Of a stretch of 64,000 bases of DNA, positions 36,411 through 60,814 are shown in pieces. The stretch lies in NCBI GenBank assembly GCA_964019415.1, contig OZ025874.1, positions 7,187,592 through 7,251,591 on the forward strand. The letters run 5' to 3'. A program made the translations under genes and the position numbers. Positions within the stretch are counted from its first letter, which is position 1. Every line of letters begins with the position of its first letter. Below the pieces are notes generated by a model, which saw nothing but the letters and a program-made list of their open reading frames with translations, did not search any database and was not told where the DNA came from. Origin of the DNA: Ianthella basta (Eukaryota > Porifera > Demospongiae > Verongiida > Ianthellidae).

Positions 36411-36418
36411 TATATAAG
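36411..36418 (+). promoter_or_regulatory. TATA box of cluster gene D
   Basis: TATATAAG, 131 bp upstream of the start codon, followed by GCAGAAG and CTCTGCAAACCATC. The same block precedes the paralogues at 47146 and 50354. Confidence 0.8.
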
Positions 36419-36548
36419 CAGAAGTGGCCCTCTGCAAACCATCTCACCAGCAGGACTGGCAACTACCTTGAAAGATTTATTCCAGTGGATAACAAGAAGG
36501 GACTATTATCGTTTTGCACAGAGAGTCAGTCACTTCTGATTTCACAAG

Positions 36549-39500
36549 ATGAAGCTGATCGCAGCAACCTGTCTGCTGATCCTGGTTCAGGTGAGGCACT
36601 GCAGTGATGTGTGTAGGCATACCCCACTGCTGTGTGCACATGCTATCCTTGTAGTGAGTGCACATACCCCATTGCTGTGTGCACATGCTATCCTTGTAGT
36701 GAGTGCACATACCCCACTGCTGTGTGCACATGCTATCCTTGTAGTGAGTGCACATACCCCTCTGCTGTGTGCACATGCTATCCTTGTAGTGAGTGCACAT
36801 ACCCCACTGCTGCGTGCACATGCTATAGCATTGTTACTGCCCATTCAACTGAATTGACTTATGACATGTGTGTCCTTCTGGTTTTGCTGCAGTACTCTGT
36901 ATCAGTCCCTACCCCATACAAATGCCCACCTGGAACCACACTGAATGATGTTACTGGAGAGTGTGACTGTCAGTACGGCTATGTGCTCAATCGCAAGACC
37001 AACCAATGTGATTGCCCCAAGGGGTTGGAAGTGCGTTACAACTATGCTAGAGGACACCTGGAGTGCGGCTGTCCAGATGGACAGTATCTGAGCTATGGTC
37101 CTTCTCTCTATGAGTGCTCCCATTCATCTGGGTCACCAACTAGCCATCCTACCAAGGTGCCTACCCACCCTACCAAGGCGCCCACACACCCTACCAAGGT
37201 GCCCACACACCCCAAACCGACCGAAGCCCCTTCTTACTACTGCCCACCTGGCACCACACTGAATGATGTTACTGGAGAGTGTGACTGTCAGTATGGCTAT
37301 GTGCTCAATCGCAAGACCAACGAATGTGATTGCCCCAAGGGACTGGAAGTGCGTTACAACTATGCTAGAGGACACCTGGAGTGCGGCTGTCCAGATGGAC
37401 AGTATCTGAGCTATGGTCCTCATGTCTACGAGTGCTCCTACTCCTCTCCCAGCTACCCTCCCAAGACAACCAGCTACCCTCCCAAGACAACCAGCTACCC
37501 CCCTCACACAACCAGCTACCCTCCCAAGACAACCAGCTACCCCCCTCACACAACCAAGTACCCCCCTCACACAACCAGCTACCCTCCCAAGACAACCAGC
37601 TACCCCCCTCACACAACCAAGTACCCCCCTCACACAACCAGCTACCCTCCCAAGACAACCAGCTACCCCCCTCACACAACCAAGTACCCCCCTCACACAA
37701 CCAAGTACCCCACTTACACAACCAAGTACCCCGCTTACACAACCCGACCACCTCCACCTCCCTACTGCCCTCCCGGTACCTGGCTTAACAAGGTTACTGG
37801 AGAGTGTGACTGTCAGTACGGCTACGTCCTCAACCAGGCCACCTACCAATGTGACTGCCCTAAAGGACTGGAAGTGAGATACAACTACCATGCAGGACAC
37901 CTGGAATGTGGCTGCCCCAAAGGACGTGAGCTGAAGTATGGCCCTAACCTCTACCAATGCACTCCTTGCACTGGAGGCAAATACTGGGATGACAAATCCA
38001 GTGGCTGCATTTGCCAAAGTGGCAAGAGCTGGGACGACAAATCTAGCAGCTGCATCTGCCCTGGAGACAAGACATATGATGAGGACTCTTACAGCTGTGT
38101 TTGCCCCAAAGGCAAGAGCTGGGATGAGAAGTCGAACAGGTGCATCTGCCCTGGAGACAAGATCTATGATGCTAAGTCCTACAGCTGTGTTTGCCCTGGA
38201 AACAAGTACTGGGATGAAGCATCTTACAGATGCATCTGCCGTGGTGACAGGAGCTGGGATGACAAATCCTCCAGCTGTGTTTGCCCCAAAGGCAAGACCT
38301 ATGATGCCAACACCTACAAATGTGTCTGCCCTGGTGACAAGATCTATGATGCTAACTCCTACAGCTGTGTTTGCCCTGGAAACAAGTACTGGGATGAGAC
38401 ATCTTACAGATGCATCTGCCGTGGTGACAGGAGCTGGGATGACAAATCCTCTAGCTGTGTTTGCCCCAAAGGCAAGACCTATGATGCCAACACCTACAAA
38501 TGCGTCTGCCCTGGTGACAAGATCTATGATGCTAACTCCTACAGCTGTGTTTGCCCTGGAAACAAGTACTGGGATGAGGCATCTTACAGATGCATCTGCC
38601 GTGGTGACAGGAGCTGGGATGACAAATCCTCTAGCTGTGTTTGCCCCAAAGGCAAGACCTATGATGCCAACACCTACAAATGCGTCTGCCCTGGAGACAA
38701 GATCTATGATGCTAACTCCTACAGCTGTGTTTGCCCTGGAAACAAGTACTGGGATGAGGCATCTTACAGATGCATCTGCCGTGGTGACAGGAGCTGGGAT
38801 GACAAATCCTCCAGCTGTGTTTGCCCCAAAGGCAAGACCTATGATGCCAACACCTACAAATGCGTCTGCCCTGGTGACAAGATCTATGATGCTAACTCCT
38901 ACAGCTGTGTTTGCCCTGGAAACAAGTACTGGGATGAAACATCCTACAGATGCATCTGCCGTGGTGACAGGAGCTGGGATGACAAATCCTCCAGCTGTGT
39001 TTGCCCCAAAGGCAAGACCTACGATGCCAACACCTACAAATGCGTCTGCCCTGGTGACAAGATCTATGATGCTAACTCCTACAGCTGTGTTTGCCCCAAA
39101 GGGCTGGTATACAACGAGCGTACTTATCAATGTGAGTGCCCAGACAACCAGGTCCTCCGCCATGGAGTGTGCGTCTGCCCTGTCAAGGGTCAGGTGTACT
39201 CGGCTGGATATGGCTGCCACTGTCCTGGTGACAAGGTGGAGCACGATGGTGCCTGTGTGTGCGCTCACTGTCCCAAAGGCTATGACGTTGTGGAGAAAGG
39301 GGATCAATGCAAATGTGTCTGCCCTAAGTGCCCTAAAGGCTATGAATCTGTTGAGGAAGACTACAAATGTGCCTGCCAGTGTGCCAAGAAGTGCGACTAT
39401 GGTTACACCCTCAACAAGAAGTCATGCGAATGTGAGCGTAAGCAGCCTGTGTGTTCATGTCTGGCAAAACGCAGTGGCTACGATGCCCACTGTGCCAGGA

Positions 39501-39562
39501 AGAACACCCGTGAGTTGTGCCACCGTGTCCCTGGCTACTGCAGTTGGAGTTGCAAATATTAG
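36549..39562 (+). CDS. Cluster gene D: large modular Cys-rich secreted protein, 2 exons
   Basis: Exon 1, 36549-36590, encodes MKLIAATCLLILVQ. Exon 2, 36893-39562, follows in phase 0; 903 residues in total. After the signal peptide come three copies of a module of about 65 residues (CPPGTTLNDVTGECDCQYGY ... CDCPKGLEVRYNY ... LYEC), separated by Pro/Thr linkers. The second linker is a mucin-like array of SYPPKTT and KYPPHTT. Next is a run of 20-residue Cys repeats (CPGDKIYDANSYSCVC, CPGNKYWDEASYRCIC, CRGDRSWDDKSSSCVC, CPKGKTYDANTYKCVC) forming five near-identical 180-bp blocks. The end has KKCDYGYTLNKKSCEC, like gene H, and a terminal CSCLAKRSGYDAHC ... CSWSCKY domain. No family is recognised. 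Many Thr sites suggest O-glycosylation. I infer an extracellular structural, adhesive or mucus protein. Confidence 0.88.
36600..36826. repeat. 45-bp intronic minisatellite of gene D (5 copies)
   Basis: Unit: TGTGTGCACATGCTATCCTT, GTAGTGAGTGCACATACCCC, ACTGC. It fills most of intron 1. The same unit occurs three times in gene E and eight times in gene F. Confidence 0.9.
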
Positions 39563-40252
39563 GTGGACATCACTGAACACTCTCTTATGGAGTACCTTTT
39601 CATTGCACATGGCGTACATATTATTTAACTGCAAATAGACTATCCTGCTTTACTAATAGAGTTAGCAAGGTGATAATTTTTAGGCCATTACATATTGTAT
39701 TGATATTAATGAATCAATTCATTGAAGTTATATCAATCAGTCAATCTTCATTATCAAAGTGCACCACACCACAAGGTGCTAGGGCACACAAAAGGTCTCA
39801 TGTAGCACTAACACATATGTCAGAGACAGAGAGTGAAAGAAACACTGAACCCTGATCCACAGGGTATCTAAGTTTAACACAAGCAGCAGCATGAATCATG
39901 CACTAAGCCTGGCACACCACATACAGTAGCACTATATAACTGCTGTAAGCTCTAGCATGGCATATGCATATCATATCTAGCATATGCTAGCTCATAGCAC
40001 TAAGACATGTAGCTCAGAAGAATATGATTAGTGCATGCATGCTGTGGATAACACAAAAGCAACCTGGTTACCATCACAATGACTGACTTCTTCCACCAGG
40101 GGTAGCCTGAGGTGGCCCCACGCAGGGCACCATAACAGCTAATGGCAGATGTCTTCAACGCCTTCACTTTGGCTTTCCTTGCAGGTTCTTTCATTCCTCT
40201 CCACTAAGAGAGTAAGCACTTAATGGTGCATTTCACTATATACAAATATGGT
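39563..40252. other. Gene D 3' flank
   Basis: 3' UTR-like sequence. TTTTTAGGCCA near 39677 and the context around it match the 3' flanks of genes E and F, so the duplication unit included the 3' flank. No gene is seen. Confidence 0.6.
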
Positions 40253-40966
40253 AAGGTAGAGGCCTACCTAGAATCAGGAATATCGACCGCGAGGAGTGTT
40301 AGTGCAATACCTTTGCATTCTCTTGAGCTATTGTAGATTGCTTGGTATCATTTTATTGTGCAGAATAAGCTCTTTCCAATGATGTATAACAGTAACACTT
40401 TTGGCACAGCTGGTCTAAATGAGATTGCTGTGACTCAACTTGGACCGATTCTGTATGGTGGCAGCTCTCCTGGAGTCAGCTTTGCAAGCAGCAGCTTCAT
40501 TCCTCTTCAGTGTGTTCCCCAAGCATGTGTGTGTAATGAATAGAGTAGATATGGCCATATTAACAGTATAAATGTGCTAGCCACCTGCGAAGTCAGTGCG
40601 ATGGAATGGTGGCACTTCCTCTTATGGAATTGGCCCCATATGTGACAAAGGTCATAGGGAAGCCACAAAATGGCCTATTCATTGCACACACACATGCTTT
40701 GGGAACACACTGAAGAGAATGAAGCTGCTGCTTGCAAAGCTGACTCCAAGAGGGCTGCCACTGTACAGAATCAGTCCAAGTTCAGTCACAGCAATCTCAT
40801 TTAGACCAGCAGTGCCAAAAGTGCTACTGTTATACATCATTGGAAAGAGCTTTTTCTGCACAATAAAATAATACCGAGCAATCTACAATAGCTCAAGAGA
40901 ATGCGAAGGTATTGCACTAACACTCCTCGTGTTCCATATCCCTGATTCTAGGTAGGCCTCTACCTT
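40253..40966. mobile_element. Foldback element, arms of about 290 bp
   Basis: The left arm (AAGGTAGAGGCCTACCTAGA ... CAAGCATGTGTGTG, to about 40535) is repeated in reverse complement at about 40683-40966, with a spacer of about 150 bp. The arms are roughly 95 percent alike by eye. The flanks (AGTAAGCACTTAATGG at the left, ATTTGAGTATATGTAGTAC at the right) recur next to each other at 41430-41500 without the element, as a related empty site. No coding capacity. Confidence 0.75.
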
Positions 40967-41539
40967 AAGTATTTGAGTATATGTAGTACACACGTAGTAT
41001 ACACAGCATACCAGCATGCCTCCTTCCTATCTCTGTCTGGAATGCTGCCATGTCCCTCTTAGCTTGATCATCATTCTCCTGTCTCTCTTTCTCTTAAAAA
41101 ATGCACAACTCTGAACTCAAACTCAAGGGCCATAGTGTCCTTCATCATGCCCAGCTTTGGTCTCTCCTCTAACTCCTTCAAGAACATGCTCCTTACTTTC
41201 CTCCAAGCAATACTTGACAACATATCCCCATGCAATCTCTGAGTCAGTAAGGGTTTTAACAGCATCTCCTCCCATACCCTGCCACTCACTGTTAAAAATA
41301 GGGAGTGATGATCACACCCAAAATTGGTATGAATTGGTTGCCACAGTGAGCACCCCCTTTTGCAGTGTGATGTTCACTCCAACCATGCAGTACACAACAT
41401 ACCATTATGGGAACTGTTTGTAAGAGAGTAAGCACTTAATGGTACATTTCACTATATACAGATATGGTACACTACTTTAAGGATTTGAGTATACGTAGTA
41501 CACAGCACACCAACTGGCAGAATAGTTTGTGGGTTATGA

Positions 41540-43215
41540 CATTCGGATCCACTGTGCAAACATTGGGCATCTGGTACCCCAATGAACTTTACCGGGGAAT
41601 ACGGCATTCCCTGCAAACATTGGGCATGTGGTGCCCCAGTGAACTTCACTGGGGAATATGGCAGTCCCCACAAACATTGGGCATCTGGTGCCCAAGTGAA
41701 CTTCACCGGGGAATATGGCATCCCCTGCAAACATTGGGCATGTGTGCCCCAGTGAACTTCACCAGGGAATATGGCATCCCCTGCAAACATTGGGCATCTG
41801 GTGCCCCAGTGAACTTCACCGGGGAATATGGCATCCCTTGCAAATATTGGGCATGTGTGCCCCAATGAGCTTCACCAGAGAATACGGCATCCCCTGCAAA
41901 CATTGGGCATGTGTGCCCCAGTGAACTTCACCAGGGAATATGGCATCCCCTGCAAACATTGGGCATCTGGTGCCCCAGTGAACTTCACCGGGGAATATGG
42001 CATCCCTTGCAAATATTGGGCATGTGTGCCCCAGTGAACTTCACCAGAGAATACGGCATTCCCTGCAAACATTGGGCATCTGGTGCCCCAGTGAACTTCA
42101 CTGAGGAATACGGCATCCCCTGCAACCATTTCTAATTGGGCATCTGGTGCCCCAGTGAACTTCACCAGGGATTATGGCATCCCCTGCAAACATTTGGCAT
42201 CTGGTGCCCCAGTGAACTTCACCGGGGAATATGGCATCCCCTGCAAACATTGGGCATGTGTGCCCCAGTGAACTTCAGGGAATATGGCATCCCCTGCAAA
42301 CATTGGGCATCTGGTGCCCCAGTGAACTTCACCAGGGAATACGGCATCCCCTGCAAACATTGGGCATCTGGTGCCCCAATGAATTTCACCGGGGAATATG
42401 GCATCCCCTACAAATATTGGGCATCTGGTACCCTAGTGAACTTCACCAGGGAATATGGCTTTCCCTGCAAACATTAGGCATCTGGTGCCCCAATGAATTT
42501 CGCCGGGGAATATGGCATCCCCTGCAAATATTGGGCATCTGGTACCCTAGTGAACTTCACCAGGGAATACGGCTTCCCCTGCAAACATTGGGCATCTGGT
42601 GCCCCAGTGAACTTCACCAGGGAATACGCCATCCCTTGCAAACATTGGGCATCTGGTGCCCCAATGAATTTCACCGGGGAATATGGCATCCCCTGCAAAT
42701 ATTGGGCATCTGGGGCCCCAGTGAACTTCACCGGGGGAATACGGCATCCCCTGCAAACATTGGACATCTGGTGCCCCAATTAACTTCACCAGGGAATATG
42801 GCATCCCCTGCAAACATTAGGCATCTGGTGCCCCAATGAATTTCACCGGGGAATATGGCATCCCCTGCAAATATTGGGTGTCTGGTGCCCCAGTGAACTT
42901 CACCAGGGAATACGGCATCCCCTGCAAACATTGGGCATCTGGTGCCCCAATTAACTTCACCAGGGAATATGGCATCCCCTACAAATATTGGGAATCTGGT
43001 GCCCCAGTGAACTTCACCAGGAAATACAGCATCCCCTGCAAACATTGGGCATCTGGTGCCCCAGTGAACTTCACTGGGGAATATGGCAGTCCCCGCAAAC
43101 ATTGGGCGTCTGGTGCCCCAGTGAACTTCACCGGGGAATATGGCATCCCCTGCAAACATTGGGCATGTGTGCCCCAGTGAACTTCACCGGGGAATATGGT
43201 ATCCCCTGCAACACA
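41540..43215. repeat. 57-bp minisatellite, about 29 copies
   Basis: Unit: ACTTCACCGGGGAATATGGC, ATCCCCTGCAAACATTGGGC, ATCTGGTGCCCCAGTGA, with a shorter GCATGTGTGCCCC variant. Because 57 is a multiple of three, long frames appear on both strands. The variants break them, and no start or signal sequence supports coding. Confidence 0.92.
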
Positions 43216-43559
43216 AGTACCTAATGGTACAGTATAAATGCCCAAATGGTGTACTTAGTTTGAGGAGGTCCTCCCATTGTACACAATATATATACCATCA
43301 GGCCTAGCTGTCCCGGGTAGCTATGTACTTCAATAGCTTGTATAGGATTGCAAATAAACTCTTGTCATCTTTAATTTTGGTTATGAATTACTTCAAATTC
43401 TCTTAATCTATCAGAAATGGCATGACAGTGTGGATACTGGTGTCAGTGTGAATGTGACACTAAAGTAATGGTGTGACTAATCACAGCCTTGGACTGACTG
43501 GTGTGATGGTCACACCATATTTTTAACAGTGCTCAAATTCACCAACACACTTAGCTATG
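43216..43559. other. Gene-free stretch
   Basis: Sequence between the minisatellite and the retrotransposon fragment. ACCTAATGGTACAGTATAAATG at 43221 resembles the left flank of the minisatellite. Nothing else is seen. Confidence 0.5.
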
Positions 43560-44500
43560 TTCTTCATCCAGACCCCTTTAAGCTTGCCACACTCCACTGC
43601 TATTCTTGCTATCGTTCTCAGCAACCTCCCCTCATACATCTTACTACACCTTAAACCAGAGCTTCACACAGCACATCTTTGCCTCCCACACAACAGGCAA
43701 AGCCTCCGCTTCAAGCAACAATGAAGCCTTGGGGTGAAGTGTGCCTACTGCAAAGAACGTACTACGGAGACCACACAGCTGCACTTGTTCAATGGATTCT
43801 AAATGTATACTGCAGCCCTATATCTCTGCACCATACATCATGCTTGACTCCTCTAGTGATTCCCACAACTTCCTGAAAATTCCAATTCCTACTTCTCCAA
43901 TCTCTGCCTGACTTCTCTGAAGACAAGCTCCTAGAGCTCTTCTCCCAGCCTCTGCCTTATCCTCCACCATATCTGCCAGTGCCAGATACTCATGCACAAC
44001 AAAGCCTATACGGGAAGAAACCATCAGGACTGCCTTACCATTCGCCCCACTTCACACCTCTTGGCCTTTTTATTGTGGATATGCATAGTTCCAGACATGG
44101 CCACATTAATCTTCACTCCCCACTCCTTACACCGCTCCACCAACACATCCAAACTCTTTTTTATACCAGATGCATCAGAAGCCACCAAGCATCTGCAAGT
44201 AGCAGACCCGGATTGTCTCACCATGCACACTGTTGATGTATAGGGAGAAGAGTAATGGGGATAAGACGCATCCCTGGCATAGCCCTGTGTTCACTTCAAA
44301 CTCTTCACTGATCTGACCATTCACTTCTACCCTACACGCACTACCCTCATACAGAGCCTGTAGAAACCTTAGAAACCTGCTGTTCACTCCCACACTCTGC
44401 AGACAAGACCACAACTTCACCTGATCAACCTTATCATAGGCCTTCTCAAAGTCAATGAATACTACTAACATGCCTGCAGGCTTCTTCACCATTTCTGTTT
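43560..44500 (-). mobile_element. Broken non-LTR (LINE) reverse transcriptase fragment
   Basis: Read on the minus strand in three frames. VVFIDFEKAYDKVDQVKLW and GLCQGCVLSPLLFSLYINS are the palm and GxxQG...LSPLLF blocks of non-LTR reverse transcriptases. SLDVLVERCKEWGVKIN is the segment that normally follows the catalytic YADD. KAEAGRRALGACLQRSQ and KLWESLEESSMMYGAEI follow. The YADD motif itself is missing, and stops and frame shifts separate the pieces, so this copy is dead. The type looks L2/CR1/Jockey-like. Confidence 0.85.
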
Positions 44501-45515
44501 CTGTTTCTGTATAAACGTGTGTATGTATGGGTGTGTACATAGCTATTATGCCACATGCAGGTTCAATTGCCCATCGACTCCACATCACTAGTGTCCATCA
44601 GTCAGACACATCAATTGTGTGAAAAGTAGTACTATAATATATACAACAGAATTGGAAAACAAAATAATGATATGAAACTTAATATGGCAGTGTGTCAATA
44701 ATAACGGATGGACAAATTAACGTAATCAGTAGATGGTTGCTGCTGCTGTGCATTGATGGATGGATGCTGATCATAATAGAATCCAGTGGATACACTTGAT
44801 TAGCGGTTCAAACCATGCAGCCTAAACCTATTGCTGTGTATATATGTCTATGTAGTCTTGCATATCCAGACTGCCATTTTGTAGACTCCACCTCTACAAA
44901 TTGGTGGCCTGGCTATGCCAGACTAGCTAGTTATGCTGGGTTTCAGTAGAGTTATCACTGTAGTTACTTGAAACCTTACTGTAGCACTGTCAATAGAAGA
45001 ATTATGTGGTTGGTCACTTTGGAGCCAACTGTCCTGTTGCCATGACAACTTGTATGAATGCATTGCCAAAGGGGAGCTCGGTACCAAGACAATATCTTCC
45101 TTTACAGTTTTGTCATGTTTATGGACAGCACATGCAATGTGCCACATTCTGAGAGTTGCTGCTGTACAAGTTAGGAAGTGGGGATGGGAATGCTGGTGGG
45201 TAACTTCACTTGCGTGTAAACTGATATGGCAGAGGTACACCAAGGCATGCTGATTTTTGGGAGGTGTTTCTTGTTGTTATGATAGCTGGCAGTACTGCAC
45301 GTTGCAAGCTGTAATAGCAGAAAGTGTGATCCTAGTTAGTGATCTCATATATTGAAGTACCCTGCAGGGTTCTTCACAGGACTTGCTATGTGTACATGCA
45401 CCTCAGGTGCTAGATGTCCACATACCCAGGCATACATGCAACATACCCACACATTCATGTGTAATGTACACACACATGCACACTCAAGCCCTGTTACACC
45501 ATTGCTGTGCCTCAC
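44501..45515. other. Gene-free stretch with relics of the cluster
   Basis: ATCACTAGTGTCCATCAGTC at about 44583 resembles the 3' flanks of genes E and F (49017 and 52535). A small foldback of the TAGTCTTGC family is at 44852-44924. No open gene. Confidence 0.5.
44852..44924. mobile_element. Short foldback relic of the TAGTCTCGC family
   Basis: TAGTCTTGCATATCCAGACTGCC and GGCCTGGCTATGCCAGACTA are inverted ends around about 30 bp. Confidence 0.6.
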
Positions 45516-45660
45516 CTGAACAAGTATCAGCAGACTAGTTGCTACCACTAAGTTCATCCTGTTCTGTTTGAACCATGAGATGTGCTTGATTCCCGCGCTC
45601 TACAGTGATAAGCCCTTTTACTGTGTCTTGCCGATGGGATGGTTTATAGGGTGTTGTCTG
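45516..45660 (-). pseudogene. Orphan signal-peptide exon and promoter of a cluster D/E/F paralogue
   Basis: On the minus strand, ATG 45557 opens MNLVVATSLLILVQ followed by the donor GTGAGGCAC, closely matching exon 1 of genes D, E and F. Upstream, CGGCAAGACACAGTAAAAGG and a TATAAA (45643-45648) match their leader and promoter region. No exon 2 is found downstream on this strand before 44.9 kb, so the copy has lost its body. It shows that the family was once duplicated in inverted orientation. Confidence 0.75.
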
Positions 45661-46829
45661 TATTCCATAACCACTGCTGCTGCAGCACACACAAATACAG
45701 CCAGCAAGCAGTGGCAATTGTACTGCTAGTAGGAAGTAATCCCATTGTGTGCAGATGTTTATACCAATATTAGCATTCTCAGCTACCAAATGTACTGTGT
45801 ATATATGTATATATGTCTTTGACTAGGACAAATTTGTGTCTGTAACGGATCAAATTATTTTCAGTTGTAAGCTCTGTGTGAGCGGACACAGCATCAAATA
45901 TGGTATAGCAGGATCCTTGGAACAGTCTTTGTCAGCTTTCAAGAGTGCTGACTGTACAATACAGAGTCCTTACAAGATTGCATATGGTGGTAACATTAGT
46001 AGGAAGGAGGACCATAACAGTGAATACCTGAAGTGACCTTGTTGTATGTGAATACCATTTCTGTGGTCAGTCCTGGTCCCGCAGTGGCTTTATGCTAAAG
46101 GGCAAGTTAGGATTATTAGTGGAAGTCTACTGTGTTTGTTATGATTTCTGAACCATGACATAGACTGTTCTGTAATGTAAACTTTAAAGTACATTGCTAT
46201 GGTAGAGGTGACCAAGGCATGACTAAGTATCCCAGGTGTACTTTCAATCTGGTAGAATGCCCTCTCGTTACCATGAATTTAGCATACCGAGAGGAAGAGG
46301 AGGAGCAATTATTGTTGAGTTTTTCCATGCAGGGACGCGTGGTCTTCAGAGGCACTCGGCACCATCCCTACATCTCTCCTTGTTTTTGTGGAAAACCTTT
46401 TTACTTCCCTTACCTATTTGACCTCACACAGTATCTGCACTATCTGTGAGTCAATGGGCTGACATGTGAAAGAATGCTAGCAGCCAGCTGCCACCTGCAA
46501 TTCGGTGTGGGAATGATAAGAACTATAATATTGACAGACATTCAGTGACCTCAGCAGCAAACTGATTGCTGGGACTGACCTACTGTATAACAATTTGTAT
46601 GCCATAAATAGAAGCACACATATTGGAAATTCAGCGCATCAACTCAGCAACTGATAATAGGCCTAAAGTATGCCATTATGCAACTCAAGACAAAGGATGG
46701 AAGACTGACTGAGAAATAGTACAGTATGTTCAATTTAATATACTCCTGTACTGTGTAGTCCTCTTTGTTGCATAGTATTGCACTGGGGCAGGCATACATA
46801 CATGAGCATAGGATAATAAGGAAAAGTAT
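45661..46829. other. Gene-free stretch
   Basis: GTTATGATTTCTGAACCATG and CCAAGGCATGACTAAG, near 46138-46230, recur at 34388-34490, marking a dispersed repeat found upstream of both gene D and gene E. No gene is seen. Confidence 0.5.
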
Positions 46830-46839
46830 TTGAAGTGAA

Positions 46840-46841
<2 letters not shown>

Positions 46842-47283: not shown

Positions 47284-48776
47284 ATGAAGTTGATCGCAGC
47301 AACCTGTCTGCTGATCCTGGTTCAGGTGAGGCACTGCAGTGATGTGTGTGGGCATACCCCACTGCTGTGTGCACATGCTATCCTTGTAGTGAGTGCACAT
47401 ACCCCACTGCTGTGTGCACATGCTATCCTTGTAGTGAGTGCACATACCCCACTGCTGTGTGCACATGCTATAGCATTGTTACTGCCCATTCAACTGAATT
47501 GCTTTATGACGTGTGTGTCCTTCTGATCTTGCTGCAGTACTCTGTATCAGTCCCTACCCCATACAAGAAATGCCCACCTGGAACCACACTGAATGCTGTT
47601 ACTGGAGAGTGTGACTGTACGTATGGCTATGTGCTCAACCGCAAGACCAACCAATGTGAATGCCCCAAGGGATTGGAAGTGCGTTATGACTATGCTAGAG
47701 GACACCTGGTGTGCGGCTATTCTTCACATGTACCAGCCACCCACCCCCCTAAAGCAACCACGTACCCTCGAGATCCTTACGTTAACAACCATGTTCCAAA
47801 GCCAACCACGTACCCTCCTTACGTTAACAGCCATGTTCCAAAGCCAACCACGTATACTCCTTACGTTAACACCCATGTTCCAAAGACAACTACGTATGCT
47901 CCTTACGTTAACGCCCACACTCCTAAGCCCTACTACGCCCCTTACACAACCCAACCACCTCTAACCCGACCACCTCCACCTCCCTACTGCCCTCCTGGGA
48001 CCTGGCTGAACCAGGTTACTGGACAGTGTGACTGTCAGTACGGCTACGTCCTCAACCAGGACACCTACCAATGTGACTGCCCTAATGGACTGGCAGTGAG
48101 TTACAACAAGGAGCAAAGACACCTGCAGTGTGGCTGTCCCAAAGGACAGTATCTGAGCTATAGTTATAATAAGTATGGGTGCACCTACCACCCTGCTACC
48201 CCTGACCCCTATGCTAAGACAACCACATACTACGCCCCTCCCACAACCCGACCACCACCACCTCCCTACTGCCCTCCCGGTACCTGGCTGAACGAGGTTA
48301 CTGGACAGTGTGACTGTGAGTACGGCTACGTCCTCAACCAGGTCACCTACCAATGTGACTGCCCTAATGGACTGGTAGAGAGCTACAGCAAGGAGCATAG
48401 ACGCCTGCAGTGTGGCTGTCCCGAAGGATACCTGGTGAGCTATAGCCCCCATCTCTACCAGTGCGTCCCGCAGCCTTCTTGCTCCGGAGGCAGGATCTAT
48501 GATGCTAAACTTTCCAGCTGCGTTTGTCCAGCGAACCTGGTCTGGGATCCCAAATCCTACAGCTGCGTATGTCCTGAAGGACTAGTATACGATGTGTATT
48601 CCCGGAACTGTACCTGCCCCCATGGCCAAGTCTACAACGCATACTCAGGTCTATGTGAGCCTGCATGCTCATGTGTAGCATACAATTCTGGCTACGCTGC
48701 CCTGTGTGCCAAGCAGACCACTGAGCACGAATGCAACTACCAGTCTGCCCAGTGCAACTGGAAGTGCGCATATTAA
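47284..48776 (+). CDS. Cluster gene E: modular Cys-rich secreted protein, 2 exons
   Basis: Exon 1, 47284-47325 (MKLIAATCLLILVQ); exon 2, 47538-48776; 426 residues. The mature part has three CPPG modules. The first is cut short after HLVCGY and runs into a Pro/Thr linker with repeated HVPKPTTYPPYVN units. The second and third (CPPGTWLNQVTGQCDCQYGY, CPPGTWLNEVTGQCDCEYGY) are complete. A few 20-residue Cys repeats follow (IYDAKLSSCVC, VWDPKSYSCVC, VYDVYSRNCTC), then the terminal domain CSCVAYNSGYAALC ... CNWKCAY. It lacks the long 180-bp block array of gene D. It is the closest relative of gene F, 3.2 kb downstream. Secreted; function unknown. Confidence 0.87.
47334..47478. repeat. 45-bp intronic minisatellite of gene E (3 copies)
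   Basis: The same unit as in genes D and F, here with the lowest copy number. Confidence 0.9.
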
Positions 48777-50361: not shown

Positions 50362-50484
50362 CAGGAGCAGCGCTCTGCAAATCATCACACCAGCAAGACT
50401 ACTGTAAAGAGTATACCATTGCTGAAGGAGAAGGGTCTATCAATACTAGAGGGAGTCCGCCACTTCCAATTGGAACAGAACAAG

Positions 50485-52281
50485 ATGAAGTTGATCGCAG
50501 CAACCTGTCTGCTCATCCTGGTTCAGGTGAGGCACTGCAGTGATGTGTGTGGGCATACCCCACTGCTGTGTGCACATGCTATCCTTGTAGTGAGTGCACA
50601 TACCCCACTGCTGTGTGCACATGCTATCCTTGTAGTGAGTGCACATACCCCACTGCTGTGTGCACATGCCATCCTTGTAGTGAGTGCACATACCCCACTG
50701 CTGTGTGCACATGCTATCCTTGTAGTGAGTGCACATACCCCACTGCTGTGTGCACATGCTATCCTTGTAGTGAGTGCACACATACCCCACTGCTGTGTGC
50801 ACATGCTATCCTTGTAGTGAGTGCACATACCCCACTGCTGTGTGCACATGCTATCCTTGTAGTGAGTGCACATACCCCACTGCTGTGTGCACATGCTATA
50901 GCATTGTCACTGCCCATTCAACTGAATTGCTTTATGACGTGTGTGTGTCCTTCTGATCTTGCTGCAGTACTCTGTATCAGTCCCTACCCCATACAAATGC
51001 CCACCTGGAACCACACTGAATGCTGTTACTCAAGAGTGTGACTGTCAGTACGGCTATGTGCTTAATCGCAAGACCAACCAATGTGATTGCCCCAAGGGGT
51101 TGGAAGTGCGTTACAACTATGCTAGAGGACACCTGGAGTGCGGCTGTCCAGATGGACTGTATCTGAGCTATGGCCTACATCTCTATCAGTGCAGTGGGAT
51201 ACCAACCACCAGGCCCACTAAAGCAACCACGCACCCCACTACTGCTAGCACTCACGCCACTAAGCCAACCACGTACCCCACTTCCGCTAGCACCCATGCC
51301 ACTAAGCCAACCACGTATCCTACTTCCGCTAGCACCCATGCTACTAAGCCAACTACCTACTCCACCACCACTTACACAACCCGACCACCTCCACCTCCCT
51401 ACTGCCCTCCCGGTACCTGGCTAAACAAGGCTACTGGAGAGTGTGACTGTCAGTACGGCTACGTCCTCAACCAGGTCAGCTACCAGTGTGAATGCCCCAA
51501 AGGACTGGAAGTGAGATACAACTACGCTCTGAAACATCTGGAGTGCGGCTGTCCTGATGGACAGTATCTGAGATATGGTCCTCATGTGTATGAGTGCGCC
51601 TACTACGTTGCATCACCTACCACTAGCCCAACTAAAGCAACCACATACCCTACTACCACTGGCACCCATGCTACTAAGCCAACCACGTACTCCACCGCCA
51701 CTTACACAACCCGACCACCTCCACCTCCCTACTGCCCTCCCGGTACCTGGTTGAACAAGGTTACTGGAGAGTGTGACTGTCAGTATGGCTACGTCCTCAA
51801 CCAGGTCACCTACCAATGTGACTGCCCTAAAGGACTGGTAGTGAGTTACAACTATGCGCAAAGGCACCTGCAGTGTGGCTGTCCCAAAGGACATCAGCTG
51901 AGATTTGCCCCCCATCTCTACCAGTGCATCCCGCATCCTCCTTGCTCCGGAGGCAAGATCTATGATGCTATCCATTCCAGCTGCGTTTGTCCAGGGAACA
52001 AGATCTGGGATGCCAAATCTTCCAGCTGTGTCTGCCCAGCGAACAAGATTTGGGACAACAAATCCTCCAGCTGCGTATGTCCCAAGGGACTAGTATACAA
52101 TGTGTATTCCCGGAACTGTACCTGCCCCGATGGCCAAGTCTACAATGCATACTCAGGTCTATGTGAGCCTGTATGTTCATGTGTAGCATACAATTCTGGC
52201 TACGCTGCCCAGTGTGCCAAGCAGGCCACTGAGTACGATTGCAACTCCCAGTCTGGCTACTGCAACTGGAAGTGCGTGTAA
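50485..52281 (+). CDS. Cluster gene F: modular Cys-rich secreted protein, 2 exons
   Basis: Exon 1, 50485-50526 (MKLIAATCLLILVQ); exon 2, 50968-52281; 451 residues. It has three complete CPPG modules (CPPGTTLNAVTQECDCQYGY, CPPGTWLNKATGECDCQYGY, CPPGTWLNKVTGECDCQYGY). They are separated by Thr-rich linkers built from ATKPTTYPTSASTH units and a TTRPPPPPY joint that also occurs in D and E. Four 20-residue Cys repeats follow (IYDAIHSSCVC, IWDAKSSSCVC, IWDNKSSSCVC, VYNVYSRNCTC), then CSCVAYNSGYAAQC ... CNWKCV. Promoter, leader, intron and 3' flank are shared with gene E, so E and F are a recent tandem duplication. Secreted; function unknown. Confidence 0.88.
50534..50902. repeat. 45-bp intronic minisatellite of gene F (8 copies)
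   Basis: The longest of the three paralogous arrays. One unit carries two extra bases (GTGCACACATACC), which shifts the reading frame relative to exon 2. Confidence 0.9.
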
Positions 52282-53185
52282 ATAGACAACGCATCAGCCA
52301 ATTTCATTCAGAGTGCATACTCTACTGCACATGGATTACATAATTAACTTGAAGTAGGATTCAGCATTTGTTTATAATTGAGTCATATTTTAGCTGAACT
52401 TTTAGGCCACAATATTGTACTGATTAATCTTATTGAATATTCTACTGCAGTTTGTTACAGTCAAATGCATATATGGGCATGTACTGTAGCTCTATTGTGC
52501 TACTTGCAAATACAACTGCCCAACAAATGCATATCACTAATATCCATCAGTCATGCAGACACATCAATACTGATGTCATAGAGGCTCATCACTGCATGCA
52601 ATAAATTTGGCACTGACTTTCAAGTGTAAACGTATGTAGCAGGGAACAACAGCAGAGGACATTTCAGCTTTGAAGGCTGAGAAAGGCCCTTGTGAAATGA
52701 CCTGTGTTACTGTTCCTGCTATATTCTGCTTGAACATCAATATCAAGTCTACATCAATATAGTACTGATAGATGGATAGTGATCATAATGGAATACGATG
52801 GATGCATGAGGTGAAGGGCTGGCAAAAGTGCGTGGTCTGTGCTACTGTGCTATGCCTGCTTGTAGAGTTCGTGCTTCTGGGTTGACTACTTTTGCTCAGT
52901 GTGGAGCCAAAATAGTGCAATAATTTGCTAGCGGAAGTGGAGAAGAAGAATGTGTACTTGAAGAAGGATGACTAGGAGCACAGTCATGCAACCTGACACC
53001 TTCAATTGTGACTAACCCATCTAAATGAATAACTATACATGTAACTTATAATTAGTAGTGCCTCATTAAGTAACAGATGGAGTATCAGAAAAGGTTTACA
53101 TGTTTGATAGCAACTATATTAGAAATCAGCTGTTGTAAGTCTATTTATGGAGGTGTGGGCTGAATCGATCAGAAATGTTTTGTGT
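52282..53185. other. Gene F to G spacer
   Basis: Duplicated 3' flank with a hairpin element at 52637-52721 (copy 4, matching 49120-49205). The last 380 bp before gene G hold nothing recognisable. Confidence 0.6.
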
Positions 53186-56086
53186 TTAGCACTCATTCCA
53201 GTAGCATTTGTTGGGTGAGTGGTTGCAGTCCCTCTCTGTAGTCTGGGTGGCACAAGCATATCTGTGATGTGGGTACCAAGCATGATTCACACAAGATGCA
53301 GAGCAGCACTTCCAGTGACAATCGAACCGGTCATTCGGGTCACTACACTTTTGGTAGGTCCGTATAAAGGGACATGTCCATCTATGGAAGAAGGTGCGCG
53401 AGTTACCAACACACTTTCCAGGGCAGGTGGTTACCGTTGCTGGGGCGGAAAGAGTGCAAGTGCAGGAGTCAGAGTTCAGTGTGTATCCAGCATCGCATGA
53501 CCTTGTACACTCACAGCCACACCCCTTCCCTGCCGAGCGGGTGTGGTAGGCTGGGCATGGTGGACACACACACTCGCACGTGTCTTCATTAAGCGTGGCG
53601 CCATCTGGGCACTCTGCACATTCACACTTGCATGTGTCTCCCACCTCTGTCACTATCAGACCATCTGGGCATGAAGTTGGGTCACACATACACAATCCAG
53701 CAGTTTCATTAATTATCTTTTCACCAGGACAGATGCACGTCTGTATCTTTGGATCATATTCCTGTCCCTTGATTGGGCAGACACATTCATTTGTTAAGGG
53801 AACAACTAGCTGGTCACCCTCGCACACACAGCTGTCTGATGAGGCATCGTAGTAAGTCTCTCCAGGACACTGGCACCCATAGTCTGTCTCCTCATACCCC
53901 TTCGGGCAGTAGCATTCACACTGGTCGAGGTCAAGCACTGCCGGGCGTTCACAGTTAATTGAGCACTCACACACACATGTATCGTTGTCTACCTTTGCTG
54001 TGTACTCACTGGGGCACACGGGGCAGTTGCAGGCTTGCAACTCTTCATTGAATATCTGACCTTTTATGGGGCAGATGCACTCTTCATTGTATGGGTCATA
54101 CAGCTGATCTCCCGGGCATTTGCAGGTACTGGTGTAATCATCATAATACTGTCCAATGGGGCAGGAGCAGTTCTTGTAAACACTGCTGTAAACATAGCCT
54201 TTTGGGCAGACGCAACTCTGCACTACACTATCCCAAATCTGAATTCCTGGACATAGACAGCTTCTTGTGGCTGGATCGTAGATCAACCCAGGATGGCAAT
54301 TGCAAGTGCAAGTCTTCAAGTCGAGAACTTCTCTGTCATTGGGGCACTCCAAATCACATGCACAATTACACCTTTCCTTATTCAGCACAAAGGGTTGATC
54401 ACACTGCCTATCACAGACGCACTCACACCTGTCATAATCAAGGTGATAGCCATCAGGGCATGTTTTTAGTCCACACTCACACTTACACTTCTTGTCATTC
54501 AGAGCATAAGGGTAGTCACACTGCTTATCGCAGATGCACTTGCATCTCTCATAATCAAGCTGATAGTCAGTGGGACACGTTTTCAGTCCACATGTGCACT
54601 GACATTCCTTCTTGTCCAATACATAACTGCCCTCGCACTGCCTGTTGCAGATGCACTGACAGTTACCATAGTCAAGTTGCTGTAGGGAGAAAGAGTGAGG
54701 TGCAGATGTATTCTTAGCATAATTACATTGGATACCATTTATGCACCAATTTGTTGACTATTTTGATGAAGCTCATGCTATAACGTTTACAGACTCAATT
54801 GATTTTGGCTCTAGTGGTTAGAACATGATGGATAAATCTGGTAAATAGTAGCTTAACATGTTGTTGTGGCTGAGTGCAGACGTACGTGTACCCAAGTATC
54901 CTTTACTTACGTATCCACTGGGGCACTCCTTTTCTGGACACACACATCTGCCTCCATCGTTGAGAACTTGGCCTGGAAAGCAGCATTTGTAGAGGTGCCA
55001 GCCGAGCACACGATGGTAGGCAGATGGACATACACATTCCCACTGTCGCCTTCGGTAGTTATATCTCTGCAGGTGTCCCCTGGGACACACGCATCGGTTC
55101 AACTTCCAGTTGAAGACTTTTCCAAATGGGCAGTCACAGAGCCCTGTTATGGTGTTGTACTCATATTGATGTGGGCAAGTGGGTGTGGTTGGAGGGGGTG
55201 TGGTCGGATGGACTGTGATTAGAGGGGGCGTAGGTGTTGGCTTAGTCGTTGAAGGTGGACTTGTGCACCAGCAAGTGTTGTACTTGTAGACCAGTACCCA
55301 ATCTCCACTACATTGGACATGGAAACGCTCCCAGCACAGTGTTTCTATCTGTGCATCAGTAACTGGTAAATCACCATAAGATACCTGAATCATTGAGAGA
55401 GTGGGGATGCAGTAAACAGTGTGTTCTTCACATACTTAGTAAATACATACGTATAAGGTCACAAAATATGCTGATTTAGCATCGGAGTCACTTAGTAAGG
55501 AAACAAGGTAACAGCTGTGTAACAACATGCCTGTGTATGATGTTTCGCCTTTGGTAATTTCACCTACATCAGCCTCATACCAAGGACCTTTTGATTAATT
55601 ACGTGGCCTTGCATCTGCAGACGGCCTGTGTATACTGGCCTCCCTCCTTATTATCCGCAGACAGCCTGTGTATACATGGCCTCCCTCCTTATTAACCGCA
55701 GGCGTCCTGTGTATACTGGCCTCCCTCCTTATGAACCGCAGACGGCCTGTGTATACTGGCCTCCCTCCTTATTATCCGCAGACGGCCTGTGTATACTGGC
55801 CTCCCTCCTTATTATCCGCAGACGGCCTGTGTATACTGGCCTCCCTCCTTATTATCCGCAGGCGTCCTGTGTATGAGGCTACTCCTACGTATTTATCATG
55901 TGTATGGCTACTTAAAGTTGTAACCATGCAACAATAAACATTTACGCTAGCATCAACAATCTGCTGAATCTAGTGCTCCCAAACAATGCCCCTACGTATC
56001 TCCTGTCCCATGCTGCACTATGTATTTACCTTGGTTTGTGCTAGCAGGCAGAAACAGAGTAGCACCAGGTCACGGTAGAGCTTCAT
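53186..56086 (-). CDS. Cluster gene G: chimeric modular Cys-rich secreted protein, 3 exons
   Basis: Exons 56086-56030 (MKLYRDLVLLCFCLLAQTK, signal peptide), 55384-54911 and 54679-53186, all phase 0; 674 residues. Exon 2 starts VSYGDLPVTDAQIETLC, a region with no counterpart in D-F. A Thr/Pro linker and one CPPG-type module follow (YEYNTITGLCDCPFGKVF ... RYNYRRRQWECVC ... LYKC). Exon 3 begins with gene H-type repeats (CDYPYALNDKKCKCECGLKT, CPDGYHLDYDRCECVC). Then come D-type 20-residue repeats (LIYDPATRSCLC, YYDDYTSTCKC) and two terminal domains (CHWKC and CVNHAWYPHHRYAC ... CYWNEC). It therefore joins the module sets of D/E/F and H in one protein. Secreted; function unknown. Confidence 0.87.
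55613..55874. repeat. Minisatellite of about 40-42 bp in gene G intron 1 (about 6 copies)
   Basis: Unit: GCAGACGGCCTGTGTATACT, GGCCTCCCTCCTTATTATCC. Confidence 0.9.
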
Positions 56087-56257
56087 CTTGCCTGCAAACA
56101 CCCTACAGGATGCCACCAAAGGTAGAAGTGAGTGATACTGCACCTTGACGTATCTCTTAATCTCTTATTAAACAGTGGCATTACCTCTACAAATACACTG
56201 CTCCAGAAGTAGAGGCTGAACAATCGAGTGATCCTTACTCATCCTGATTGCTTCTAG

Positions 56258-56265
56258 CTCTTATA
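56258..56265 (-). promoter_or_regulatory. TATA box candidate of gene G
   Basis: TATAAGAG on the minus strand, about 170 bp upstream of the start codon. Confidence 0.55.
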
Positions 56266-57594
56266 CTACAGTATGGCGTGCTATCTGCTGATCATTCATG
56301 AGGTGTGGCAGATTGTTGGTGTGTGTAACACAATGGAATTTGTAGTGTAGGGCTTTGACGCTGCTGAGTAGTGAGACATTACATGAGCCACGCCCTGTGT
56401 GTGTGTGCATGTGTGTATATGTGTACGTGTGCGTGTGTGTGCGTGCGCACGTGCGTGTGCATGTGTGTGCATGTGTGTGTGTACGTGTGTGTGTGTGCCT
56501 GTGGGTTATTTGCCTTAAAGTTTATGATTTCTTATCATGTGTTGGGCTGTACATGTGAATACACTATGGCAGGGCCGGGGGAACCGCTCCGGCCACTCCG
56601 GCCATGGCCGGACCAAAGTTTTGTGAGCCAGCTAGGAAATTGTCAGCTAGAGCTAAAATTAACGTTAGCCGTCAGGAACTTACTATTAGTTGCCAAAGAG
56701 ATCATGAATTGAAAGCTCTAACTGCTTTCAAATGGAGTAATCCAATTGCAGTGAGTAACCACTTTGGGAATTAGCTAATATTCAAGCGAGCTGCAGGTGC
56801 AACTATGTTGCGAGGTCGCCGCCGCCATTTTGATGACGAATTATGACGTGTTAGAGAACACAATGGCTGCCGCCGCGACAGAAGAAGCTTAAAACCAAGG
56901 ATAACTCCAAAAGACTTAAAGGAAGGTGCCCTATATCCTAGGAAGACACTTTCTGGGTCGTGCTCCATAATCTTTAAACGTCTTGGATGTTTAACTAGCA
57001 CTTAGGCTTTTCTAAGCTGAAATTCTTTACAATTTGTAGTCCTAAAGGGCATGAGGATGGGAGAGGGAAGCTTTCCCGCAAACATTCAGGCTCTCCCCCC
57101 TTCCCCCAATGTTTTCAAATTTCAGTAAAAATATGACATTAATGTGCAGTTAATGTATGAAAGAAAAGTGCTTTTGGACCGCACAGAGTGCACCAGAACC
57201 AATCTTGGAGGACATAAACCCCAAAACTTTCCTAGGGACACGAACTTGAACTATGTATCCGTTCCCCCTCCCCTTTTGTCTATCTTGCTATAATCCTGTC
57301 TGTTGTGTAGCTACACCATCAAGATGAGTAGCTACGTAGTATTGCTTAAACGATGTCTTGGCATTCCAAATGGCCTGAGCAAATGTGCCAACCTTCCCCC
57401 GGCCCTGTATGGGGAGGTTGAAGGACTGGTCTCAATAGAGAGGTGGTCTTGTAGCATGTACTGTGTTGATTGTCCAGTGACCTGCACACACCAGTGTCTG
57501 ACAGAAGCACATTTGGTTCATAGATGGGAGTTACTGCACTTTCTACACGACTGTATGATTTCTGTTGTTGCTCTAATCTATTCAGGCAACCTAT

Positions 57595-57724
57595 TACAGT
57601 GAAACCTGTCTAAGACAGCCACCTGTGGGCCAGTTCTAACTGGTCTTTATTGAGAGGTGGCTGTTCTATAGAGCTAGATTACAATGCTTTAGTGATATTT
57701 GGGGCCAGGGAGGCTGAAAGGTTT
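57595..57724. mobile_element. MITE of the CAGTGRAACC family (copy 5, right end lost)
   Basis: TACAGTGAAACCTGTCTAAG and the interior up to TTTGGGGCCAGGGAGG; no matching right terminus. Confidence 0.75.
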
Positions 57725-58669
57725 TGTACGTAGCCTCCCCCACCCCGTACTCTCCCCACCCCATTGCTTGGCAGGAAGTGGTGTAAGGTATGTGTACAAA
57801 CAGTGAAGTGTATGCAAGCAGTTACACTTAATTGAGCCCCAACTTTGGAAATGGGTGTGAGGTGTCCTCAGCAGACTGCCACCCACACTCCAGACCACAA
57901 TAAACTATGCACTTCCCAGTTCTTGGCTTAGGCCTTCAATGTGAGAGTACTCCTGCGCTAGGAACCCAATAGGAAGGAAGTGCACAAACATAAATCTATA
58001 AGTAAGATGGGAGAAAATAGATTGTCTGTTAGAGATAACAAGTAGAGGTCAATATACTATGCTGTGTTAGTAAAATAGCGGACTGTGTCAATTTCCTAAG
58101 ATTTCTCATTCCATGCACTGCAAAATCTCTGAGGCTTACATTAGACGATGATGTAATGGCATGGTTAGCAACCAGCAGCACAGTGGTGGATGAGTGCACG
58201 AAAAATAAAGCTATGAATGTAGTTGGGAGATATGGGGTTTACAGTACTTGTATCATGGCACTCTGTAGCACCACTGGCCCCACCTGCTCCCAGCTATTCT
58301 ATATGTTGCCTAGCAACGGGCATGGACACCAGTGCCGTGGTTAGCCTATGTTTGCAAACACATAATTCACACAAGTGGTTTGTAGGTCAGTGATATCAGT
58401 GATATGCTTACTTGGAAATGGGTGTGGAGCGGGAGTGAAGTCAACAGCTTCTACTGCCCATGCTCATGGCTCAAGACGGCAACTGAGTTGTATTAAACAG
58501 TTGCGATTCAGTTTGCTCAAGAAAGTTGATACCATTGATTCGCCAGTGCAACAGCATCATAGTGATGAGATCTTATAAGGCATTCACCTATTGATTTCAC
58601 AGATAGTGAACTTAGCCTAATCTGCTGGAATATATTTGTGTTTGTATGATGGTGGTGTGTACATACGTA

Positions 58670-58849
58670 TACAGTGAAACCTGTCTAAGACAGCAACCTG
58701 TGGGCCAACTCTAGCTGACCTTTATAGAGTGGTGGCTGCTCTACTGAGGTAGATTGCAGTGCTTTAGCACTATTTGAAGCCAGGGAGGTGGGCTGGTTTA
58801 GAAAGGTGGCTACCTAACCCAGTGACCATCTTAGACAGGTTCCACTGTA
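58670..58849. mobile_element. MITE of the CAGTGRAACC family (copy 6)
   Basis: 180 bp from TACAGTGAAACCTGTCTAAG to TTAGACAGGTTCCACTGTA, full length with both ends. Confidence 0.82.
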
Positions 58850-59536
58850 ACAATAGTTCATCCTGTAAAAATCACAAGTCATTGGCTGTCCCTCTAATGA
58901 CTCCAGGTTTGGAATATCATCAGTCTGTGTCCAGGTTCTCCAGGTTTGTGTCCTGTAGAATTATGCATACTATTCAACTTGTGTTAAAGTGTGGGTGATT
59001 TTCAATTGTTCCACCCCATCTAGACTACCTCTAGCAGCATACCTCCCTCCATAGGATGCACATGATGATCAAATGGGGGTGGGAAAGGTGCTAGTTAATA
59101 TCATTGAGAGCTTAGGTGTGAGGCTACACTGACCTACAACTAACTGTAACTGTACTAAATAATTAAAAGCAGGCAGTTAATGACCAGATTTCTATTGTTT
59201 GTTTTGCCCTTTATTGATAATCAACCAGCCTGATCTATGGCACAAGTGCAATTTGGCACTTCCCATGTCCGATTGATCACTCCCACTATTACAAACTCTA
59301 TAGAATAGTCAAGCATGCAAGATTCTATGGTACTACCCCTTTAATGCAACTCTCTTCGACTGTTAGATTAATTAATTCATAGGCAAGAGAATAACAAGGT
59401 CACTTGCTATAGTAAAGTCCTTGAACAATAGTACCATAGCCTATGTATATTTGCTGTATGCATGTATATACGTACTGTACGTATGTGTATATCTTAGTTA
59501 TCTCCAATGGAATCGATTGCCTTTTGCTCTTGGTAT

Positions 59537-60814
59537 TTAGTGGCAGCCTTTCTTCCAGTAGCATTTCCATCCATCCGTAGGATGGTTGCATTTTCCTTTC
59601 GTTGTGAAAGAGCGACACTTGGCAGCGTGATGGGGGTACCATTTGCTGTTGTAGCAGCACTGAGGCTTTCTGCATTCCCTGGCCCAGTAGCACTTGTACC
59701 CATCAGTGGGATGTTTGCACTTTTTCTCATTGTCACTGAAGGACGCACAGATGTCTGCATGGTGGCCATACCTAGCATAATTGCGACAACAGTGACGCTT
59801 ACATTGACAGTCCTTACTGTCTAGATAGTAGCCGTAGTCGCATTTCTTGTCACAGACGCACTTGCATTTATCGTAATCGAGGCTGTAATACTCAGGACAC
59901 TTTTTCAGGCCACACGTACACTGACATGTCTTTTGGTCCAACACGTATGGGTACTCACACTGCTTGTCACAGACACACTTGCATTTATCGTAATCGAGGC
60001 TGTAATACTCAGGACACTTTTTCAGGCCACACGTACACTGACACTTTTTCTGGTCCAACACGTATGGGTACTCGCACTGCTTGTCACAGACGCACTTGCA
60101 TTGATCGTAATTGAGGCTGTAATACTCAGGACACTTTTTCAGGCCACACGTACACTGACACTTCTTCTGGTCCAACACATATGGGTACTCGCACTGCTTG
60201 TCACAGACGCACTTGCATTGATCATAATCGAGGCTGTAATACTCAGGACACTTTTTCAGGCCACACGTACACTGACACTTCTTCTGGTCCAACACGTATG
60301 GGTACTCGCACTGCTTGTCACAGACGCACTTGCATTTGTCATAATCGAGGCTGTAATACTCAGGACACTTTTTCAGGCCACACGTACACTGACACTTCTT
60401 CTGGTCCAACACGTATGGGTACTCGCACTGCTTGTCACAGACGCACTGGCATTTATCGTAATCGAGGCTGTAATACTCAGGACACTTTTTCAGGCCACAC
60501 GTACACTGACACTTCTTCTGGTCCAACTCATATGGATACTCACACTGCTTGTCACAGACGCACTGGCATTTGTCGTAATCGAGGCTATGATACTTGGGGC
60601 AGTATGTGAGGCGACAAGCTGGCGTACATTGACAGCTCTTGTAGTCAAAGTGAGAGCCAAGGGGACAGTATTGCTGTTGGCACACACAATCGCACTTCCG
60701 CCAGCTAAAAACATAGGGTTTACGGCACCATTTGTAGAAGCATCTTCCTTCTGCTAAATGCATGGAGACACAACCCAGCAGCACCACGACAAGTGCTACC
60801 TGCTTCAGCATCAT
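59537..60814 (-). CDS. Cluster gene H: tandem-repeat Cys-rich secreted protein, single exon
   Basis: 425 residues from ATG 60814. A signal peptide is evident (LKQVALVVVLLGCVSMHLAEG). After two irregular N-terminal units, a repeat of about 39 residues (CEYPYVLDQKKCQCTCGLKK, CPEYYSLDYDKCKCVCDKQ) occurs about seven times. At DNA level this is a 117-bp tandem that is nearly identical from copy to copy. The end holds two copies of the terminal domain found in all cluster genes: CCRNYARYGHHADIC ... CKHPTDGYKCYW and CCYNSKWYPHHAAKC ... CNHPTDGWKCYW. Repeats are rich in Lys, Tyr and Cys. A possible TATATACA lies about 95 bp upstream (60908-60915). The in-frame upstream sequence MYNTSNPSLP is judged 5' UTR because it would bury the signal peptide. 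Function unknown; Lys/Tyr/Cys repeats suit a cross-linked or adhesive matrix protein (inference). Confidence 0.88.
   Translation of the reverse strand: MMLKQVALVVVLLGCVSMHLAEGRCFYKWCRKPYVFSWRKCDCVCQQQYCPLGSHFDYKSCQCTPACRLTYCPKYHSLDYDKCQCVCDKQCEYPYELDQKKCQCTCGLKKCPEYYSLDYDKCQCVCDKQCEYPYVLDQKKCQCTCGLKKCPEYYSLDYDKCKCVCDKQCEYPYVLDQKKCQCTCGLKKCPEYYSLDYDQCKCVCDKQCEYPYVLDQKKCQCTCGLKKCPEYYSLNYDQCKCVCDKQCEYPYVLDQKKCQCTCGLKKCPEYYSLDYDKCKCVCDKQCEYPYVLDQKTCQCTCGLKKCPEYYSLDYDKCKCVCDKKCDYGYYLDSKDCQCKRHCCRNYARYGHHADICASFSDNEKKCKHPTDGYKCYWARECRKPQCCYNSKWYPHHAAKCRSFTTKGKCNHPTDGWKCYWKKGCH

Follow-up and report, generated by a model that had tools for sequence, protein, structure and literature searches.

In a 64,000-nucleotide stretch of the Ianthella basta genome (the window; C7:7187592-7251591, in an assembly of 209 Mb and 96 contigs), five clustered genes are predicted to encode cysteine-rich proteins, D, E and F on the plus strand and G and H on the minus strand. 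We hold, with somewhat better than even confidence, that this is a family of demosponge proteins which are secreted, rich in Tyr, tied into disulfide ladders and used as structural or coat material. A structural extracellular family best accommodates the combination of probable secretion, a Cys ladder, Tyr content, Pro/Thr linkers, duplicated genes and internally expanded repeats. The repeat is known in kind; the libraries and literature searched gave no description of its 15-residue variant, of the rod-and-linker architecture or of the capping domain.

The initial annotation had placed a cluster of five such genes here, and it was recovered at that place with all five models open from ATG to stop. 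Gene D spans 36549..39562 (exons 36549-36590 and 36893-39562; 903 amino acids), E 47284..48776 (47284-47325 and 47538-48776; 426) and F 50485..52281 (50485-50526 and 50968-52281; 451), whereas on the minus strand G spans 53186..56086 (56030-56086, 54911-55384 and 53186-54679; 674) and H is a single open exon at 59537..60814 (425). The introns start with GT and end with AG wherever read. Open frames alone are weak evidence, because the repeats keep long antisense frames open too (762 amino acids opposite D, 310 opposite H). Chance low-complexity reading frames were considered and set aside; they are countered by the register of the repeat units and by nonsynonymous rates (dN) below synonymous rates (dS) among like copies.

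The repeat unit and its length variants

Each protein was cut at its C-x-C knots to obtain unit boundaries. Runs of 15-residue units were found in D, E, F and G, and 20+19 patterns in H and G; the so-called CPPG module resolves into 15+15+19+about 15 residues and the H repeat into 20+19. Loose units number 33 in D, 9 in E, 10 in F, 18 in G and 15 in H; 1000 shuffles of each protein gave means of 0.01-0.14. The two core classes compared, of 14 letters (24 distinct) and 16 letters (49 distinct), carry Pro at +1 (13/24 and 33/49), Gly at +3 (8/24 and 31/49), Leu/Tyr/Trp at +6 (20/24 and 41/49) and Asp/Asn at +7 (again 20/24 and 41/49). Over core positions 1-7, the BLOSUM62 expected score was 3.89 in the natural register versus a permutation mean of -7.11. 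For the pooled proteins, 1/5040 permutations (the natural register itself) reached this score, and for H alone (11 units) versus D/E/F alone (36 units) 4/5040 did, the natural one included; these are ranks and not probabilities, because units that arose as tandem copies are not independent of one another. Three separate module types had been proposed, among them a 20-residue repeat whose true length is 15 residues. With the natural register the best of 5040 permutations, the unit classes are best read as one repeat of changed length.

In D, the array of 15-residue units (37967..39139, plus strand) includes a 60-residue (180-bp) higher-order repeat in which the unit is nested and five copies of which carry RGD (amino acids 464, 524, 584, 644 and 704). 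The H array (59834..60594, minus strand) consists of 117-bp (39-residue) tandem repeats, 6.5 copies with 95% matches, and knot cutting and motif counts place a stretch of the same CXCXC type in part of G exon 3 (54296..54679, minus strand).

CXCXC, or BR3P (Pfam PF03128), is the repeat of Balbiani ring protein 3 and of the VEGF-C/D silk homology domain. H passes this family's gathering cut-off of 15 with 58.5 bits (E 4e-16). The motif C-X10-C-X-C-X(1,3)-C, as given in the available part of PMC10328876, stands in tandem in H and G, with 16 and 8 strict occurrences against shuffle means of 0.11 and 0.13. In contrast, D, E and F failed the strict motif test (1, 0 and 0 occurrences) and are therefore classed as related units, not BR3P members; their units have a 15-residue C-x12-C-x-C form. 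No PF03128 row was obtained for the D, E and F stretches or the G exons at E <= 0.1 (G exons and part of D, E <= 10). Beyond the BR3P repeat, the cluster proteins add Pro/Thr linkers (not in H) and a C-terminal six-Cys/Trp domain, and unlike VEGF-C/D, those scanned yielded no growth-factor domain. Since 5/11 of the Porifera matches in the same source were already called BR3P or BR3P-like (PMC10328876, in part), BR3P proteins had been noticed in sponges before. The earlier view that the set matches no named family thus fails for the H repeat, which is BR3P/CXCXC, with the other modules as variants of its unit; it stands for the C-terminal domain, which reached no Pfam cut-off in the stretches scanned.

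The core repeats look like constrained protein, because dN lies below dS among like copies; whole chains look looser. Nine CPPG modules were compared (the shortened first module of E was left out), giving 36 pairs, of which 8 with G yielded no dS. dN was below dS in 27/28 computable pairs, with 0.027/0.127 (D25/D131) at the lowest end. In H, the five like copies gave dN of 0.010-0.031 and dS of 0.055-0.401. In D, the first four 60-residue copies show 1-4 silent codon differences and 0-1 that change the amino acid.

In an AlphaFold prediction of F exon 2, strands recur every 15 residues (331/338, 346/353, 361/368, 376/383). The predicted local distance difference test score (pLDDT) is 73-84 in this hairpin stretch and below 50 in most linkers. 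The 15-residue units in this part of the model are predicted as one beta-hairpin each.

Cys makes up 8.7-18.1% of the five proteins, and Tyr 10-11.5% of D, E and H, 9.5% of F and 6.1% of G. Signal peptides had been proposed for all five; judged by eye, every N-terminus is hydrophobic and fits one, so that secretion is predicted. The proposed Pro/Thr linkers were found in D, E, F and G, where Cys-free stretches of at least 25 residues are 47-83% Pro+Thr+Ser, but not in H, which has no such stretch. Behind its hydrophobic N-terminus, D carries three CPPG modules, Pro/Thr linkers, the long 15-residue array and the C-terminal domain. G continues with a Pro/Thr linker and a single diverged CPPG module, then CXCXC units, units of 15-16 residues and two C-terminal domains, and H with its CXCXC array and two C-terminal domains.

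The C-terminal six-Cys/Trp domain

The C-terminal domain occurs once in D (39452..39559, plus; alignment, tblastn and shuffle test), E (48666..48773, plus; alignment and tblastn) and F (52174..52278, plus; alignment and tblastn), and in tandem in G (53189..53425, minus; alignment and tblastn) and H (59540..59791, minus; sub-threshold PF01508 match), i.e. 7 copies in five proteins. A shared domain with this distribution had been claimed, and the claim holds, with the addition that there are two subfamilies. When all are aligned together, 7/7 copies agree at seven columns, six of them Cys and one Trp. By tblastn, the D/E/F tails find each other and the G/H tails find each other, with no cross-match at E <= 1e-3. 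Profiles of the two groups aligned by hhalign over 24 columns (score 26.7, probability 86%), and this score exceeded 200/200 Cys-fixed column shuffles of one side (best 22.4, mean 11.1). The comparison rests on these 200 shuffles because shared Cys inflates hhalign E-values; the G/H profile against Cys-fixed shuffles of an H tail still gave E 0.0015 (score 16.8, probability 17%).

In the Pfam scan of stretches that contain the tails, no family scored above its cut-off, and the tail profile gave two chance-level matches among PDB sequences (E 0.88 and 3.9). The H tandem tails resemble the Paramecium surface antigen domain (PF01508 Paramecium_SA; E 0.0013, 19.6 bits) and 0/22 Cys-fixed shuffles matched it at E <= 1, whereas the D and G tails scanned alone gave no match. 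This resemblance is a lead only, because it lies below the 21.2-bit gathering cut-off and its E-value is per one protein while 17 were scanned. The AlphaFold model of the H tandem tail found no PDB match with Foldseek at E <= 10.

Possible function and competing explanations

Each chain would consist of serial Cys-pair units, 15-20 residues long and of the BR3P/CXCXC type that the motif statistics show, and each unit probably forms one small beta-hairpin, as modelled for the 15-residue unit. The C-x-C knots may tie neighbouring hairpins by disulfides into stiff rods, which in D, E, F and G would be joined by flexible, probably O-glycosylated Pro/Thr linkers. The six-Cys/Trp domain, capping every chain once or twice, potentially serves end-joining or docking to cell or matrix. 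Tyr at about 10% in four of the five proteins might allow Tyr cross-links, and the five RGD in D might allow integrin contact. The product is probably tough, non-collagenous and extracellular: a coat, a fibre sheath or a material for attachment. The initial annotation had suggested structural matrix, adhesive or mucus; a secreted, modular, Cys-rich matrix, coat or adhesive protein fits, but the repeat is BR3P-related and not new.

Several observations weigh against this structural reading. Chains of Cys hairpins also occur in receptors and growth-factor tails, which leaves room for binding or signalling. The five RGD copies count as one event, because they are the product of a single tandem amplification, and give no more than a hint of cell contact. 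Among the CPPG pairs, dN and dS are at parity in E259/F270 (0.134/0.135), and dN is slightly above dS in D306/E259 (0.212/0.211). The sixth H copy, adjoining the tail, is diverged, and all 15 H copy pairs together hold 47 silent versus 62 amino-acid-changing codon differences; the fifth 60-residue copy of D has diverged too, and is set apart from every other copy by 5-6 silent codons and 10 that alter the amino acid. For whole E versus F, dN/dS is 0.155/0.219 = 0.71. The structural models are weak: that of F has a mean pLDDT of 53.5 and a predicted template modelling score (pTM) of 0.27, with its own C-terminal domain below 50, and that of the H tandem tail has 57.4 and 0.35. Neither model matched PDB (Foldseek) at E <= 0.001; the absence of a significant fold match is no evidence of a new fold.

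As an alternative, the rods might expose their variable linkers and C-terminal domains so that these meet microbes or particles, as secreted binding or defence proteins in mucus or immune decoration. We regard this as unlikely, since the Pfam scan gave no lectin or other binding domain above cut-off and like repeat copies are conserved, not diversifying. Far less credible to us are growth-factor-like or signalling proteins whose BR3P tails tether a ligand to heparin or matrix as in VEGF-C/D. The H/G motif is the same as the BR3P of VEGF-C tails (PMC10328876, in part), but no PDGF/VEGF Pfam domain was found in the scanned stretches of the five genes (G by exon), and all 11 Porifera matches were judged PDGF/VEGF false positives in the available part of that source.

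A more specific role would be in silica or carbonate skeletons, as matrix proteins that act as a demosponge stand-in for galaxins and calcarins. According to the accessible text of PMC12419799, galaxins and calcarins form beta-hairpins that are joined by disulfides, with a spacing of 10-15 residues between di-cysteines; they come from coral skeletons and calcareous-sponge spicules and are defined by 10-23 regularly spaced di-cysteines (CC). Compared with this text, the cluster shares regularly spaced Cys pairs and, as in calcarins, clustered and duplicated genes, and it would share secretion and the ladder principle as predicted here; hairpins recur every 15 residues in part of the F model. 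Ephydatia muelleri and Tethya wilhelma are reported there to be without galaxin-like sequences, which would suit a stand-in, but the demosponge Vaceletia has four galaxin-like transcripts (PMC12419799, in part), so that galaxin-type sequences are not missing from all demosponges. Moreover, the Cys pairs of D-H are C-x-C and not C-C: with CC counts of 0, 0, 0, 2 and 2 in D, E, F, G and H, the cluster fails the di-cysteine definition. Galaxins and calcarins are known from skeletons and the demosponge cluster from its genes, and we do not claim membership. Overall, a dedicated skeletal role appears improbable.

Returning to structural or coat proteins, it is tempting to speculate that the C-x-C hairpin-ladder family, built from a BR3P unit and closed by the six-Cys/Trp cap, is a main non-collagenous structural or adhesive polymer of demosponges, a counterpart of galaxins/calcarins and of midge silk derived from one ancient animal repeat; this broader proposal is a long shot, though we do not dismiss it. 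To our knowledge, little has been learnt about the non-collagenous proteins in the fibres, cuticle, mucus and attachment of sponges. With a repeat and an end-domain in common, the five clustered genes provide concrete sequences to seek in proteomes and single-cell data, and they link what is probably a sponge material to CXCXC repeats of silk type and to galaxin-type ladders. The regular, short 15-residue unit is suited to structural work.

Other identities were set aside. CBM_14 (PF01607) scored 18.3 bits in F, 14.4 in E and 7.1 in part of D versus a cut-off of 22.1. PDGF/VEGF membership was rejected, as the Pfam scan of the five genes' stretches gave no row for a cystine-knot VEGF homology domain, and EGF and TNFR membership was considered and set aside; the weak models gave no significant structural match to EGF, TNFR or furin-like hairpin folds. 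Pfam rows such as ECR1_N, BppU-like_C, zf-Nse and YycE-like_C fell below their cut-offs and were treated as chance, as was a single NCBIfam row at 0.088. The CPPG profile and H found no PDB sequence. No relatives were confirmed in viral contigs searched with H or in prokaryote genomes searched with H and the CPPG profile. In the literature, the titles and abstract openings of open-licence papers gave no description of this protein set, and the available parts of PMC3447736 and PMC4633127 contain nothing matching the cluster.

Gene organization, promoters and neighbouring features

The first exons of D, E and F are 42 bp each and encode MKLIAATCLLILVQ; a phase-0 intron and one long exon follow. 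These first introns hold a common 45-bp minisatellite (36618-36826 in D, 47353-47471 in E and 50554-50899 in F) with 4.6, 2.6 and 7.6 copies and 96-100% matches. The upstream regions of D, E and F have TATATAAGCAG in common at -138, -138 and -131; in D, TATATA lies at 36411..36416 (plus strand). H has TATATA at -101 and -252. TATA promoters had been attributed to all five genes, which is borne out for D, E, F and H but not for G, where the 260 bp inspected upstream of the ATG contain no TATATA. The TATA boxes suggest that the products may be abundant.

Further copies were sought in the window, where no extra fragments of the five proteins were found at E <= 1e-3, and in 45 loci (21 of them flank, from parts of 110 kb to the right and 100 kb to the left of the window), where five proteins and five pieces gave 0 tblastn rows at E <= 1e-3. 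As a control, the same queries gave 128 rows (SEG on) and 96 rows (SEG off) on the window itself. In a looser search (E <= 1, no composition correction), the best 80 of 451 rows were mostly simple repeats or chance, with some ordinary EGF-like matches in one locus (L004).

Between D and E lie a 57-bp minisatellite of 29 copies (41555-43211) and a reverse transcriptase fragment (PF00078, E 8.5e-14; 44178-44597, minus strand), likely part of a retroelement. An exon of FAIM1 (PF06905, E 8.2e-45; 17640-18089, plus strand) represents an ordinary conserved gene. A second Cys-rich family, probably secreted, is present as six motif copies in three reading frames (3338-3418, 5617-5706 and 5821-5898, plus; 7572-7655, 7878-7955 and 8154-8234, minus) with the approximate motif A-x-C...C..C-x-A-x-F...[DE]-[IV]-T-x-x-C; the three frames gave no Pfam row at E <= 0.1.

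The mitochondrial contig of the same genome (21,233 bp, first 6 kb read) points to a demosponge; it carries tRNA-Phe, -Gly, -Val, -Thr, -Ser and -Pro (ARAGORN). Between these we read, by our own judgement, both rRNA genes (small and large), a frame for atp9 and the beginning of nad4, which stays open under codes 4 and 5 and is interrupted under code 1. GC-rich hairpin-like repeats were seen by eye between the genes. A mitochondrial atp9 with such a gene order is a demosponge feature.

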